Shown here: positions 8,690 through 14,281 of the stretch, piece after piece
Numbering within the stretch: the first letter of the stretch is position 1
Layout of the letters: the number at the start of each line of letters is the position of its first letter
DNA from: Actinomycetota bacterium
GTDB lineage: Bacteria; Actinomycetota; Actinomycetes; S36-B12
Assembly (NCBI GenBank): GCA_017856385.1
Contig: JAFMFD010000014.1
Coordinates: 1-37,812, forward strand
Length of the DNA stretch: 37,812 nucleotides
Reading direction: 5' to 3'
Notes under the pieces: generated by a model
What the model saw: only the letters and a program-made list of their open reading frames with translations
What the model was told of the DNA's origin: nothing
Databases searched by the model: none
Program-made: the position numbers and the translations under genes

Positions 8690-8786
8690 TCGGCCCGTCA
8701 GGTGGTGGCGCAAGTGACGAGCGGTGCACTGCAGAAGCCATGTGACTGACGGGGCTGGATTTCCTTGAATTTCTTGGCAAAACCTC

Positions 8787-8815
8787 TTGATCGGTAGTTG
8801 ACGCGGAGGTAGAAA
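8787..8815 (+). promoter_or_regulatory. Candidate promoter of the structured RNA
   Basis: TTGATC (8787-8792), a 17-nt spacer, then TAGAAA (8810-8815, followed by T). Transcription would begin near 8822, just at the first hairpin of the RNA. The surrounding 8755-8820 stretch is clearly more AT-rich than the rest of the window, as expected for a promoter. A weaker alternative is TTGGCA at 8774 with TAGTTG at 8795 (15-nt spacer). Confidence 0.5.
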
Positions 8816-8821
8816 TCTCTC

Positions 8822-9076
8822 ACCGCACCGAAAGGAGCGGGTCGGTCGGAAAGGCAGCCGAGCACCAAGGGCCCGAAAGGGCCGGAGGAGAACCCCCGGT
8901 GCAGGGGGGCGGAAGCCGGAACGGGCGAGGAGTCGGGAACGACGCCGGCGACCTGGCAACAGGGAGCGAGCAGCGCGGAGGGCACAGGCCGCGCGGCCCC
9001 GGGAGACCGGGCGGTGAAGGAAGTGGCTCCACGGGAAGACCCCTCGAACTCATACTTCGAGGGGTCTTCCTCTTTT
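8822..9076 (+). ncRNA. Candidate structured non-coding RNA with multiple GNRA hairpins
   Basis: Between a TTGATC-N17-TAGAAA promoter and an intrinsic terminator lies a purine-rich stretch with no convincing reading frame but with dense hairpins. They are 8823-8840 (6 bp plus A-A mismatch, GAAA loop), 8870-8883 (5 bp, GAAA), 8893-8908 (5 bp C/G), 8932-8943 (GTCG-GGAA-CGAC), 8952-8963 (CCTG-GCAA-CAGG), 8973-8994 (6 bp) and 8998-9011 (CCCGG-GAGA-CCGGG). Five of the loops are GNRA tetraloops, the kind used for tertiary docking. Longer helices are possible: 8915-8919 with 8945-8949 around the GGAA hairpin, and 8862-8866 with 8898-8902 around the second GAAA hairpin (the latter competes with the C/G hairpin). 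I could not match it to RNase P RNA, tmRNA, SRP RNA or a named riboswitch. The terminator makes it an independent plus-strand transcript, not a leader of the next gene. Function unknown. Confidence 0.65.
9034..9076 (+). terminator. Strong intrinsic terminator of the structured RNA
   Basis: A perfect 15-bp stem (9034-9048 with 9056-9070), a 7-nt loop CTCATAC, then TCTTTT. The U-tract is on the plus strand only, so it ends transcripts arriving from 8822 and separates them from the gene at 9215. Confidence 0.92.
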
Positions 9077-9179
9077 CTAGCGCACCCCCCCGCCGATGAG
9101 GCTGCGCCACGCCGGGGGCCCACCACCGCGGCGCAAGACCCGGCCTTGGGCGAGGCCCGTCACAACTGTGGCCAGCCAA

Positions 9180-9208
9180 CTGACTGCCAGGCGTGCGGTA
9201 GGTACGGT
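9180..9208 (+). promoter_or_regulatory. Leaderless promoter of the 1104-aa protein
   Basis: CTGACT (9180-9185), 17-nt spacer, TACGGT (9203-9208), 6 nt, then GTG at 9215. The paralogous gene downstream has the same CTGACT box and the same 6-nt distance from the -10 box to the start. Confidence 0.6.
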
Positions 9209-9214
9209 GGGCAG

Positions 9215-12200
9215 GTGCCGGATCCCTCCCAGCCCGTCAAGGACGACGCTGAAGCACGCAAGCAGAAGGCCCAGCAGCTCGACGAGTACCGGGCCTACGC
9301 CGCATCTCGCCCCAACACCAGCATGACGGACGACGAGAAGGTCGAGTACATGAAGTCGCGGTCGAAGACCGCGAAGCGCGACATGTTCACCAAGCCGGAG
9401 TACGACCCGGAGGCCGTCAACGAGATGATCGCGCGCAAGGACCAGGCTGCGCTGCACCAGACCGGATCCACGTCGGGCACCCGGACTGCGCAGAAGGTCG
9501 GTCGCGGCGCCAAGACCACGCAGGAGGTCGCCTCCTCGATCGGAGGCGAGTTCGTCGACAAGGCCACCGGCCTGCCGATCGCCAGCACCGTCGACGCCCT
9601 TGCCCTCGGCACCGAGGCGACCACCATGAAGATGGCCATGAACGACCCGCGGCGCAAGGAGAAGGCCCGCACCACGCAGGCGACCGCAGCTGAGATGCAT
9701 GAGCAGGGGCACGACGCGGTGAAGGTCCTTCGCTCGGACCTCGAGGAGTTCCACAAGTCAGGCGGCACCACGCCCTCGGACAGCAGCCCGCGACTCGAGA
9801 CCGGCTCCGGCCTGGCGGCCTTCAAGGCCGCCGGGGAGACCGTGCGCGCGCACAACAACGCCAGGCGTGCAGCGATCGCCTCAGGCGGCGTCAACGACCT
9901 CATTCAGCCGATGTCGATGGACCACACGCTCGGCGACGAGGTGGCCACGATCGGGGGCAAGGCCGTCGTGGACGATGGCACAAAGATCGACAGCTCGTAC
10001 ACCGCGGCCGTGCGCCAGAAGAAGGACGTGCGCAAGGGCGAGATCAAGCAGGGCAAGCAGGAGCTCAAGGACCGCCAGGCTGCGCGCCAGCGCGGTGAGG
10101 CGGACGCCGAGTTCGACACCCACATGCAGGGGCTCGCGGCCGAGAAGGCGCAACACGGCGCCGAGCTCGACACCCTCAAGCAGGCCCAGAAGTCCCGCGA
10201 CCGCCTGGGCAGGACCGTGGCGGGCTACAAGCTGACCGACCAGGAGCTCGCGGACCAGAAGGCGGCGAAGGGAGAGGTCGCGCGACTGGACAAGCAGATC
10301 TCCACCGCCCACGACACCCACGTCGCCGGGCTCACGGAGAGCCTGACCGCGCTTGAGGCGACGGGACGCCAGCAGAAGGAAGCCGACCGCAATCGTGGCC
10401 GCACGAGCATCTTCAGCAGCAAGCAGAGGTTCTCCAAGAAGGACGAGATGGCCACGCTCGAGGCACAGCGAGATGCCATTCGCGCGACGCAGACCTCGAA
10501 GATCCAGACCAAACTCGATGGCGCGACCGCAGCCCTTGCATCGACGACGGATCCGCGGCGCAAGCAGATGATCCAGGACCAGATCGCCATGCATAAGGAG
10601 CACCTGGCGAAGTCGAAGTCGGATCCGACCTTTGTCGCTCGCCAGCACCTCGGCGCGGATGACCGCGCCAAGCTCCAGGACACGCTCTCACAGCTGGGCA
10701 CCCTGCAGCGCGAGAAGGACACCGGTCTCACCGCTGACCAGCAGAAGGAGCACGACCGGATCCGTGCGTCGATTGATGCGGCCAAGCAGGGTGGCACTGC
10801 CGGTGCCAGTGCCGAGGATCTCAAGGCGCGTGAAGAGCATCAGGCCTCGCTTGCCAACTTCGACAACCTCAGCAAGCACGGCCTGACCCTCGAGCAGTCG
10901 GAGCGCAAGGCCACCCTCAAGAAGCGCATGGCGAGCATCAACAAGACGGAGAAGACGAAGCTGACGGAGCAGGAGCGTGCGGACCTCGCGGGCCTGGTCA
11001 GCGAGCGCAAGCAGCTCAAGGGCATGAACAAGAAGGCCGCGAAGTTCGAGAAGACCCACCGCGACGAGACAGTCAGCATGGGTCGTGTCGGCGGCGTGGG
11101 CACCGATCACAACGAGGCCCGGGACATCACGAGCACGTCAGACAGCATCGCGTCGTCCATCAACAAGGGCGCCTCGAAGCTGCATGGAGCCGGCGAGATC
11201 GTCGAGGGCGACCTCGACAAGGGCCGTGAGGCCCTTGCCAAGGGCGATGCGACCAAGGCCCAGTTGATCGCGGGTTCGAAGGTCGGCCAGAACGTCGCCG
11301 GGATTGTGGGCGGTGCCCTAGGCGTCGAGGGGATCGACTCCGCGATCGAGAAGGTCGGCCAGGGGATGCAGGGCGCGGGCAACCTCATCGGAGGGGCCAC
11401 CTACGAGGCGGCCAATCGCGCGCTGTTCGCCAAGAACGCGCGCTCCATGATCGAGGACGATCAGGGCAAGACCGGCAGATTCCACGAGGTCAACACCGGC
11501 GTCATCGACTTCCACGGCGCGGACGCTGAGGCCTTCGGCAAAGGCGGTGTCACGGAGGGCGCCAAGCAGCTGGCCAGCGTGCTGCACGAGCCCCTGTCGG
11601 ACGCGTTCGGCGACGATGTGTCGAAGGCACTGTCACCGGTGACCAATGCAGTCCAGGAGCACGTGCTCGATCCCGCGAGTGCAGGGCTGCAGCAGCACGT
11701 GCTCGACCCGGCCACGAAGGCCCTCGCACCCGTGACCGACGCGATCAGCGAGGCGCCCAAGGCCCTCCACGAGAACGTCATCCAGCCCGCGAGCCAGGCC
11801 CTCGGCGATGCGGGCCAGGCCATAGGCGACGCGGGACAGGCCGTGCACGAGAACGTCATCAAGCCCGCGGGCCAGGCCATGGGCGACGCGGGACAGGCCG
11901 TGCACGAGAACGTCATCAAGCCCGCGGGCCAGGCCCTGCAGCAGCACGTCCTCGATCCGATCGCGGAGCCCCTCGCGCCGGTGACCGAGGCGGTCGGCGG
12001 TGCGGCGGCGGCCGTGCATGAGAACGTGATCCAGCCCGCGAGCCAGGCCCTGCAGCAGCACGTCCTCGATCCCGCAATGCAGGCGCTCGCCCCCGGGGAC
12101 GGGGACTCCGGGAGCTCGCTGGACTCCGCCGTCGGCGCGGTCAAGGAGCACGTGGTCGACCCGTCGGTGGCCGCGGCCCAGGAGATGGCCCAGGAGAAGG

Positions 12201-12529
12201 GCCAGGAGGCCGTCCAGGAGAAGGCCATGGAGATGTGGGCCAACCGCGATGCGCCGGAGGAGCGCACCGATCCCAAGCCCGACACCAAGCCCGCGGCTCC
12301 ATCGACCGGTCCCACGCCGGCACCCGCTCCCACCCCGGCTCCCGGTCCTGCCCCCGGCCCGAAGCCAGGTCCCACACCCCCGGGTCCCACGCCCGCGCCG
12401 CCTGCCAAGAAGCTCAGCTGGTGGCAGCGTGCCGTTCGGGCGGTCAAGCGCGGCGTGAGCGCTGTCGGGCGAGGGGTGAGTCGCGGGTGGAACCGCCTGA
12501 AGGGCCTGTTCTCCCGCTCGTCGCCCTGA
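9215..12529 (+). CDS. Large helical protein of unknown function with N-terminal tag motif and HENV repeats
   Basis: 1104 aa from the GTG at 9215. This start is chosen because the product then opens PDPSQP, matching PNPSHA of the downstream paralog, and a -10 box lies 6 nt upstream; an upstream in-frame ATG at 9014 would run through the terminator. Visible parts in order: an N-terminal motif at 27-54 (AYAASRP-TSM-D-EKV-YM---SKTAK) shared with the paralog at the same positions; a small-residue-rich helical segment (about 95-140); a long Lys/Gln/Asp/Ala-rich region with coiled-coil character (about 260-640); a Gly/Ala-rich segment (about 690-740); repeats of the type V-ENVI-PA-QAL and LQQHVLDPA--ALAPVT (about 809-960); a Pro-rich linker (about 1019-1064); and a basic Trp-containing amphipathic tail (1067-1104). 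There is no signal peptide and no enzyme motif I recognise. A scaffold, tape-measure-like or exported cargo protein is possible; none is shown. Confidence 0.85.
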   Translation: MPDPSQPVKDDAEARKQKAQQLDEYRAYAASRPNTSMTDDEKVEYMKSRSKTAKRDMFTKPEYDPEAVNEMIARKDQAALHQTGSTSGTRTAQKVGRGAKTTQEVASSIGGEFVDKATGLPIASTVDALALGTEATTMKMAMNDPRRKEKARTTQATAAEMHEQGHDAVKVLRSDLEEFHKSGGTTPSDSSPRLETGSGLAAFKAAGETVRAHNNARRAAIASGGVNDLIQPMSMDHTLGDEVATIGGKAVVDDGTKIDSSYTAAVRQKKDVRKGEIKQGKQELKDRQAARQRGEADAEFDTHMQGLAAEKAQHGAELDTLKQAQKSRDRLGRTVAGYKLTDQELADQKAAKGEVARLDKQISTAHDTHVAGLTESLTALEATGRQQKEADRNRGRTSIFSSKQRFSKKDEMATLEAQRDAIRATQTSKIQTKLDGATAALASTTDPRRKQMIQDQIAMHKEHLAKSKSDPTFVARQHLGADDRAKLQDTLSQLGTLQREKDTGLTADQQKEHDRIRASIDAAKQGGTAGASAEDLKAREEHQASLANFDNLSKHGLTLEQSERKATLKKRMASINKTEKTKLTEQERADLAGLVSERKQLKGMNKKAAKFEKTHRDETVSMGRVGGVGTDHNEARDITSTSDSIASSINKGASKLHGAGEIVEGDLDKGREALAKGDATKAQLIAGSKVGQNVAGIVGGALGVEGIDSAIEKVGQGMQGAGNLIGGATYEAANRALFAKNARSMIEDDQGKTGRFHEVNTGVIDFHGADAEAFGKGGVTEGAKQLASVLHEPLSDAFGDDVSKALSPVTNAVQEHVLDPASAGLQQHVLDPATKALAPVTDAISEAPKALHENVIQPASQALGDAGQAIGDAGQAVHENVIKPAGQAMGDAGQAVHENVIKPAGQALQQHVLDPIAEPLAPVTEAVGGAAAAVHENVIQPASQALQQHVLDPAMQALAPGDGDSGSSLDSAVGAVKEHVVDPSVAAAQEMAQEKGQEAVQEKAMEMWANRDAPEERTDPKPDTKPAAPSTGPTPAPAPTPAPGPAPGPKPGPTPPGPTPAPPAKKLSWWQRAVRAVKRGVSAVGRGVSRGWNRLKGLFSRSSP
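11825..11935 (+). repeat. 57-bp in-frame tandem duplication
   Basis: A 57-bp unit starting at 11825 is repeated at 11882; the first 54 bp of the two copies are identical. It encodes 19 residues, GDAGQAVHENVIKPAGQA(M/L). The near identity at DNA level, including third codon positions, shows a recent duplication inside the older, diverged HENV repeat region. Confidence 0.9.
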
Positions 12530-12589: not shown

Positions 12590-14281
12590 ATGCCCAACCC
12601 CTCGCACGCTGCTACCGAAGAGACGGCGCTGCTGGCGCAGCACGGCCCCGCGTCGGACGCGAGCAGCGCCTACGCGGCGTCGCGCCCGACGACGAGCATG
12701 TCGGACGAGGAGAAGGTCCAGTACATGCTCGCAAAGTCGAAGACGGCCAAGAAGTACGGCAACATGAACTGGGGGAAGAAGAGCCCGAGCACCGCATCAC
12801 GCCCGGCCACGAGTTCCGGCATCACGTCTCAGCGGGCCGCCGATGCCTACGCGGCCCACGAGGCCTCGCGCCAGCAGTGGCGCGCCGACAACATGACCCA
12901 GTTCGATCCGGCCTCCATGGACAACGGGATGCTCCACCAGGCCGCGAGCGCCATGGCCCATGACCCGCACGACGACACCAACGAGCTCGGTCTGAAGAAG
13001 GGGGTCTCGGGAGGCGGCCTCGCCGCAGGAGCGACCGATCTCGGGCTGACGATGTCGGGGACGCTGCCCTTCAGTCCCGTGGGCGCCGCCATGGCCGGCA
13101 AGGGCCTGGTTCGCGACATGGCCGACATGTACCGCGAGCGCGATGGCGGTGCGCACATCGAACCGGTCGCCAAGGCGCAGCACGAGGTGCGCCAGGAGGT
13201 CGCCGCCACCCGTCAGCAGTACGCCGCCGCCGAGGAGTTCCGGAAGCAGCACGCCTCGGAGCCACGCTCCGAGGACAACGCCGATATGCACGACCTCGCC
13301 GGCAAGCTGCGCGGGCAGGCGAACTGGTCCAAGGCCCGCGTGGGCGTCATGGGCGGCATGAAGGTCGACAAGGCCAAGCGCGACGAGGGCATGAACAGCA
13401 GCCCCGTTCGCGAGATGACCCCCGAGCAGCAGAGGGTCTACGAGGAGATGGACGCCGACGCCTCCAAGCGGGAGAAGGGCACTACCGACTACCTAGGCGC
13501 CGCAGCACAGGGCCTGCGCGCGGGTTCGGAGGCCCTGGAGATCTCCTCACTGGCCCAGATCCCCCTGGCCGGCAACACGCAGAAGTACGTCAAGAGCGGC
13601 CAGCGTGGCGCAGCGGCGCTGAGCCACGCATCCGACGCCGTGTCCAGCACCGTGGGCCTCGCCGGTCCTCAGGCGACCGTTGCCAAGATCGGAGTCGGTG
13701 CTGGCGGCCTGCTCCTGGCGAACGCCGGCCAGGCACTTGCGAGCGGTACGGCCTCCGCGCAGGACGATCGCGACATGGCGCGCGAGAAGCTCGACGCGCG
13801 CGACCAGGGCACCGGCCTGGAGCAGATCGCGGAGCGGGGCTTCCGGCCCAAGCACGTCGAGGCCTCAGCTCCGGTGCTGCGCACCTTCGAGGATCCCGAC
13901 AAGCGCAGCTACTTCGACCGCATGAAGGACTTCGCGTCGAATACGTGGAACTCCGTCAAGAGCGGCGCAAGCAAGGCGTGGGATGCCACGAAGTCCGTCG
14001 CCAGCGCAGCCTGGGAGGGCACCAAGTCAGTGGCCGGGAAGGCCTGGGAGGGCACCAAGGCGGCGGGCAGCGCAGCGCTCAACGCCACGATGTCCGCGGC
14101 GAGCTACGTAGGAAGCGGGATCGCCAGCGGGGCACGGGCCATCGGACGGGGAGCCAGCGCAGCCGGGGAGAGCATCGCCTCCGGCGCACGCTCGTTGGGC
14201 AACTCGGTGATGAACGGCCTGAAGGGCATGGGACGGCTGCGCCGGCCCGGCCGTCGCCCGGCCCGCTCGACCGCCCGTTAG
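12590..14281 (+). CDS. Paralog of the 1104-aa protein, ending in nine amphipathic 11-residue repeats; function unknown
   Basis: 563 aa. The N-terminus (PNPSHA, then AYAASRP-TSM-DEEKV-YM-AKSKTAK at 27-54) matches the preceding protein in sequence and exact position (21 of 28 identical over 27-54). The middle holds small-residue-rich segments that could be buried or membrane-associating helices (about 140-180 and 305-390), separated by charged linkers. From W453 to about 551 the protein runs in nine 11-residue units, starting WNSVKSGASKA, WDATKSVASAA, WEGTKSVAGKA, WEGTKAAGSAA. It finishes with the basic tail RRPGRRPARSTAR. Such 11-residue amphipathic repeats are known from lipid-surface proteins (alpha-synuclein, perilipin) and LEA proteins. 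Membrane, lipid-droplet or nucleic-acid binding would fit, but this is inference. No signal peptide or catalytic motif is seen. Confidence 0.87.
   Translation: MPNPSHAATEETALLAQHGPASDASSAYAASRPTTSMSDEEKVQYMLAKSKTAKKYGNMNWGKKSPSTASRPATSSGITSQRAADAYAAHEASRQQWRADNMTQFDPASMDNGMLHQAASAMAHDPHDDTNELGLKKGVSGGGLAAGATDLGLTMSGTLPFSPVGAAMAGKGLVRDMADMYRERDGGAHIEPVAKAQHEVRQEVAATRQQYAAAEEFRKQHASEPRSEDNADMHDLAGKLRGQANWSKARVGVMGGMKVDKAKRDEGMNSSPVREMTPEQQRVYEEMDADASKREKGTTDYLGAAAQGLRAGSEALEISSLAQIPLAGNTQKYVKSGQRGAAALSHASDAVSSTVGLAGPQATVAKIGVGAGGLLLANAGQALASGTASAQDDRDMAREKLDARDQGTGLEQIAERGFRPKHVEASAPVLRTFEDPDKRSYFDRMKDFASNTWNSVKSGASKAWDATKSVASAAWEGTKSVAGKAWEGTKAAGSAALNATMSAASYVGSGIASGARAIGRGASAAGESIASGARSLGNSVMNGLKGMGRLRRPGRRPARSTAR

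Follow-up and report, generated by a model that had tools for sequence, protein, structure and literature searches.

The locus described here lies in the window, the whole stretch of 37,812 nucleotides that was analysed, where its neighbours are leuS, an EamA transporter gene, genes for unknown proteins, a histidine phosphatase gene and nadD. The locus comprises a promoter, a putative RNA gene and a terminator (Table 1). The promoter, of sigma-70 type and read from the sequence of the forward strand, has a -35 box TTGATC (8787-8792), a 17-nt spacer and a -10 box TAGAAA (8810-8815), and was found where a sequence-only reading of the window had placed it. Seven nucleotides downstream of the last -10 base, the A at 8822 is invariant in 39 homologues and is likely to be the transcription start. 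The predicted end of the RNA is set by the terminator, for which the same reading had claimed a perfect 15-bp stem followed by a U-tract. A terminator is present, but its stem (9033-9048 with 9056-9071) has 16 bp, and the T-tract that follows the stem and its loop CUCAUAC (9049-9055) is weak.

Table 1. Features of the RNA locus, in window coordinates.
Feature	Position	Strand	Remarks
A/T-rich UP-like stretch	8750..8786	+	before the -35 box; GTGAC repeats further upstream
Promoter	8787..8815	+	homologues retain a TTG and a TAGAA-like box
RNA gene, about 253 nt	8822..9074	+	predicted ends: start from the invariant A, end from the terminator
H1 hairpin, GNRA loop	8824..8839	+	from the comparison and covariation alignment
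P2 long-range helix region	8842..8928	+	8842-8848 with about 8924-8928; covariation; closes the domain holding P3 and H4
H4 hairpin	8892..8909	+	loop GUGC 8899-8902 pairs with the H6 loop (kissing pseudoknot)
H5 hairpin, GCAA loop	8953..8962	+	
H6 hairpin	8974..8993	+	loop GCAC 8982-8985 pairs with the H4 loop
H7 hairpin, GAGA loop	8999..9010	+	GNRA in relatives
H8 terminator hairpin	9033..9071	+	the loop CUCAUAC (9049-9055) hardly varies within the class
GCCACGCC / GNCACGCC motif	9106..9113	+	42 nt beyond the end of the terminator core

A long listed open reading frame that begins at GTG 9014 runs across the 3' end of the RNA. This overlap is mechanical, and the protein probably starts near 9215, as judged by its paralogue at 12590. 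The two frames (9014-12529 and 12590-14281) encode related long, coiled, repeat-bearing proteins with a TSMxDxEKVxYM motif near the N-terminus. Neither matched a Pfam family significantly, and a perilipin-like match stayed below threshold.

The GCCACGCC motif behind the terminator recurs in most Nanopelagicales loci, 42-47 nt beyond the terminator core, a TTTATA-like stretch lying between the two. A reverse-strand promoter at this place is doubtful: its spacing is not that of sigma-70 promoters, and some loci lack the -10-like part.

Fold of the RNA and its kissing pseudoknot

The minimum free energy of 8787-9090 was -148.9 kcal/mol; dinucleotide-shuffled sequences averaged -129.8 +/- 5.8 kcal/mol, and none of 100 was as low (z -3.3). 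The opposite strand also folded well (z -3.0), as expected because the region is rich in hairpins; the direction of the RNA is given by the promoter and the terminator and is that of the forward strand. Five hairpins with GNRA caps had been reported in the earlier reading. We counted the same number, with stems of at least 3 bp, in the body (8822-9033), where shuffles gave 0.45 on average and none of 2000 gave as many. Among these hairpins, H1, H5 and H7 are common to relatives. The GGGCCC-GAAA-GGGCCC hairpin at about 8869-8883 lies inside an insertion that is present in only a subset of them.

Alignment A3, with 39 distinct homologues from one Nanopelagicales family in 278 columns, contains eight helices with 50 pairs, the loop-loop pseudoknot included, and 92.3% of cells are paired. 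Changes on both sides were found in 34 of the 50 pairs, compared with 19.7 in shuffles and at most 18 with slid partners, counts that lean towards these helices since they were picked on A3 itself. When all column pairs of A3 were searched for covarying helices, the terminator, P2, H4, H1, H7, P3 and H5 ranked highest. The H4-H6 loop contact was recovered too, among other combinations that scored similarly.

The kissing loops of a given homologue fitted each other better than swapped loops (p = 0.0007, in a comparison that ignores relatedness and carries no tree correction), and some pair through quite different letters, such as AUGCUG with CAGCAU (L015) or AAUGUUG with CAACAUU (L020 and L053). 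Relatives with bodies that cannot be aligned to that of the window, from Nocardioidaceae, Intrasporangiaceae and other Actinomycetes, keep the promoter style and the terminator hairpin, and several have an equivalent pseudoknot of different sequence. By eye, complementary segments stand at the equivalent place in Propionibacteriales (L083, L124 and L130; GGUGACG with CGUCACC or CGUCAC), in L129 and L062 (GGGUGUCA with UGACACC) and in L096 (GUAACG with CGUUAC). The Intrasporangiaceae body (four loci: L087, L107, L055 and L105) is built of tandem near-repeat hairpins with CUUCGG or CCUCGG caps, followed by the same terminator.

The loop of the terminator hardly changes. It reads CUCAUAC, rarely CUCAUGC, in 32 distinct terminator hairpins that had first been chosen by a pattern containing the loop, and both sides change in 9 of their 15 stem pairs. 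From this set we built R1, a covariance model limited to the terminator; the search with it is the stronger evidence that the loop is constant. It found the loop on new stems (CCAA/TTGG, GGGAA/TTCCC, TGCGA/TCGCA and CCAT/ATGG). A family with large genomes (f25) has the loop CCCUUAC behind a similar promoter (L170). At L170, two terminator sites lie about 4.1 kb apart, the stronger of which has the loop CCCUUAC behind an RNA-like region, and other genomes of f25 are similar.

CUCAUAC has the form of an anticodon loop and is one base off the CUCAUAA found at tRNA-CAU-like sites of the window's own genome. With some 45 tRNAs, the chance of such a likeness is several per cent, and we take it as a lead only. 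A tRNA copy was rejected: the tRNA-CAU-like loops of the genome are CUCAUAA and not CUCAUAC, and ARAGORN placed no tRNA over the CUCAUAC sites.

Relatives, upstream sites and genomic setting

BLASTN over 59 related genomes gave matches in 25, all of one family and a few of them to the terminator only. With each species represented by one genome, a scan for the pattern CCCTYRRACTCATRCTYYRAGGG gave 84 stretches, mostly from records titled Candidatus Nanopelagicales or unplaced Actinomycetota; the others came from Phycicoccus, Knoellia, Pedococcus, Nocardioidaceae, other Propionibacteriales and a Sporichthyaceae MAG. Judged by these relatives, the window would itself belong to the order Nanopelagicales. 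With a limit of E <= 0.01, R1 matched 133 of 395 genomes of the Actinomycetes class, and these belong to 70 of the 137 genera. Many of the weak matches are due to chance. Of 20 retrieved sites, most that scored under about 42 bits showed a different loop, and nearly all that scored higher had CUCAUAC behind an RNA-like region. Outside the Actinomycetes class, R1 gave weak matches alone, which were treated as chance. Three sites (L075, L082 and L102) were left out as members, being ends of protein-coding genes with the loop CUCAUGC. One locus (L110), titled as a Bifidobacterium breve MAG, has an RNA and neighbour genes of Nanopelagicales type, and the MAG is probably mislabelled.

The DNA upstream of the promoter differs between lineages. 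An A/T-rich stretch precedes the Nanopelagicales promoters, and GTKAC repeats were observed 41 times in 38 homologous upstream regions of this group, compared with 9.7 expected. Outside Nanopelagicales, the most enriched upstream 7-mer, which emerged unprompted, was GTCCACA, present in 19 of 24 regions with 1.5 expected. The DnaA box of actinobacteria, TTGTCCACA, has this 7-mer as its core. Most of these regions have 2-5 DnaA-box-like sites, compared with 0.15 per 180 bp over whole loci. Arrays of such sites (TGTGGAC or TTGTCCACA), often 11-13 bp apart, were found at L062, L129, L155, L170, L171, L173, L174, L175, L178 and L183-L185, and outside Nanopelagicales they usually precede the promoter. 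From the sequence of the boxes, DnaA would be expected to bind there. The arrays are missing upstream of the RNA in Nanopelagicales, and the boxes are therefore not essential to the RNA class.

The neighbouring genes differ as well. Many relatives have the RNA beside tgt and olefin-type genes, and elsewhere it stands beside genes of ABC-F, helicase, groEL, radA or DUF445 type (all named by sequence reading). Intrasporangiaceae have it near a tRNA gene, nadD and a histidine phosphatase gene. The window shows the same setting, which suggests an old shared location. A functional tie to the two unknown proteins downstream, proposed in the sequence-only reading, did not hold up, as the RNA adjoins other genes in relatives; our search found no functional link of the RNA to any gene. 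Since the neighbours vary from genome to genome, action in trans is most likely, and we consider it very probable that the RNA is both stand-alone and trans-acting.

Comparison with described RNAs and possible modes of action

At gathering cut-offs, Rfam 15 had no family match in the window. At E <= 10 there was a single match, to the terminator part, at 20.7 bits against a cut-off of 55, and in 19 related loci Rfam found tRNA only. No description of the RNA turned up in the literature searched, which was covered in part. Together with the homologues and the covariation, the Rfam result bears out the initial proposal that the structured RNA is undescribed, stand-alone and served by a promoter and a terminator of its own. 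The window's RNA has every feature by which we delimit the proposed class, namely the promoter, covarying helices, the kissing pseudoknot and the CUCAUAC terminator loop. Judged from sequence, this is a new class of RNA, absent from Rfam and conserved across many actinobacterial families. To our knowledge, few stand-alone structured RNAs of actinobacteria have been found beyond tmRNA, RNase P, 4.5S, 6C, Ms1 and CoRP.

6S RNA is also stand-alone, of similar size and made from a strong promoter. However, its covariance model gave no match at E <= 10, and the fold has no long bubble-bearing duplex, covariation instead backing several short hairpins and a pseudoknot. The 6C model found nothing in the window's own genome or in the other searched genomes of its family, and gave three sub-threshold matches in another family. 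The ornate RNAs OLE, GOLLD and ROOL are large and stand-alone, with many hairpins and a pseudoknot, and were of unknown function when found. The window's RNA, in contrast, has only about 250 nt, occurs in Actinomycetes and has no Rfam match to any of them. Ms1 of mycobacteria (scr3559 in Streptomyces) is likewise actinobacterial, stand-alone, about 230-300 nt long, under its own promoter and outside 6S. It is defined by a neighbouring HAD-IB hydrolase gene and by binding to the RNA polymerase core in the absence of the primary sigma factor (PMC9130861). The window locus does not have the neighbours of Ms1 (HAD-IB hydrolase and oxidoreductase genes), and the HAD-IB genes of its genome are on other contigs, so that Ms1 was rejected by synteny; the kissing pseudoknot and the constant terminator loop also set the window's RNA apart. 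CoRP RNA of Corynebacterium glutamicum is another lineage-specific, structured actinobacterial RNA that family models miss. It differs by its description: about 500 nt long, known from Corynebacterium alone and bound to RNA polymerase (PMC11077062).

By comparison of homologues we could establish, at the level of sequence, the promoter, the helices, the pseudoknot, the constant loop, the upstream arrays and the variable context. We propose that the locus is the gene for a trans-acting structured RNA of an undescribed Actinomycetes class which works by docking to a protein, a reading to which we give an even chance. The RNA would be made in large amount, as is plausible for a promoter with an A/T-rich UP-like stretch and, outside Nanopelagicales, a DnaA-box-like array. 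The body would fold as a pseudoknotted scaffold, and a conserved partner would recognise and hold the terminator hairpin with its anticodon-like CUCAUAC loop. That the loop is the main contact site seems probable to us, and we lean, with less assurance, towards a protein over another RNA as the partner. At the upstream sites, DnaA or another factor that uses them may couple synthesis to replication or growth, a suggestion that we regard as tentative. In its widest form the proposal is an Actinomycetes-wide class with DnaA or same-site control in many lineages, a body free to change around the kissing pseudoknot, and the CUCAUAC hairpin as docking site for a conserved RNA-binding partner; that all of this holds together is rather doubtful.

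The class spans freshwater plankton (Nanopelagicales), Nocardioidaceae and Intrasporangiaceae. The near-invariant exposed loop and the DnaA-box-like arrays at the promoter offer a direct experimental handle: culturable hosts exist (Phycicoccus, Knoellia and Pedococcus), loop and pseudoknot can be mutated, and a partner can be sought by pull-down. As far as we know, actinobacteria mostly have neither Hfq nor ProQ. Study of this RNA could reveal an RNA-binding protein in such bacteria, or connect the control of replication with an RNA.

The window's RNA could also be a small RNA that pairs through CUCAUAC with GUAUGAG in mRNAs, which would suit a loop that is constant, exposed and of U-turn type while its stem varies. 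We consider this unlikely, though it fares best among the alternatives. The window's own genome contains 39 copies of GTATGAG, compared with 35 of the reversed control, and the only genuine-looking start-codon site among the inspected flanks, that of rnc, is absent in the 19 relatives whose rnc start region was read. With neither enrichment nor conservation, we rejected mRNA targeting through the loop complement. Pairing with 23S rRNA was likewise rejected, as its readable stretches contain no GTATGAG.

Slightly less likely still is an abundant RNA that, like 6S, Ms1 or CoRP, occupies RNA polymerase and tunes transcription with growth phase. The size is similar, and each species has been proposed to have one abundant polymerase-associated RNA, possibly other than 6S and Ms1 (PMC11077062), which fits. 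In three genomes of the window's family, moreover, there is hardly space for Ms1 between the HAD-IB/tadA locus and the gene that follows it. However, the fold lacks a long 6S-like duplex with a central bubble, and Nocardioidaceae and Intrasporangiaceae, which both have the RNA, are also listed with predicted Ms1, so that the two seem to coexist.

Dense DnaA-box-like arrays in many lineages could mean that selection acts mainly on DNA, for example on a cluster of DnaA sites beside a strong terminator, with the RNA incidental. This is very improbable, since Nanopelagicales keep the RNA without the boxes, and it is at the RNA level that covariation and the constant loop operate. A cis-acting leader or attenuator, suggested by the long same-strand gene downstream in the window, is more improbable yet, as a strong terminator with a constant loop closes the RNA and the downstream genes of relatives differ or sit on the other strand.

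The window's own genome also has a second, shorter copy of the RNA at its tgt locus (L169, G000:C12:8055-8091). This copy has the CUCAUAC loop and an H4-like hairpin and loop, for which we saw no H6 partner; it might contact the long RNA in trans.
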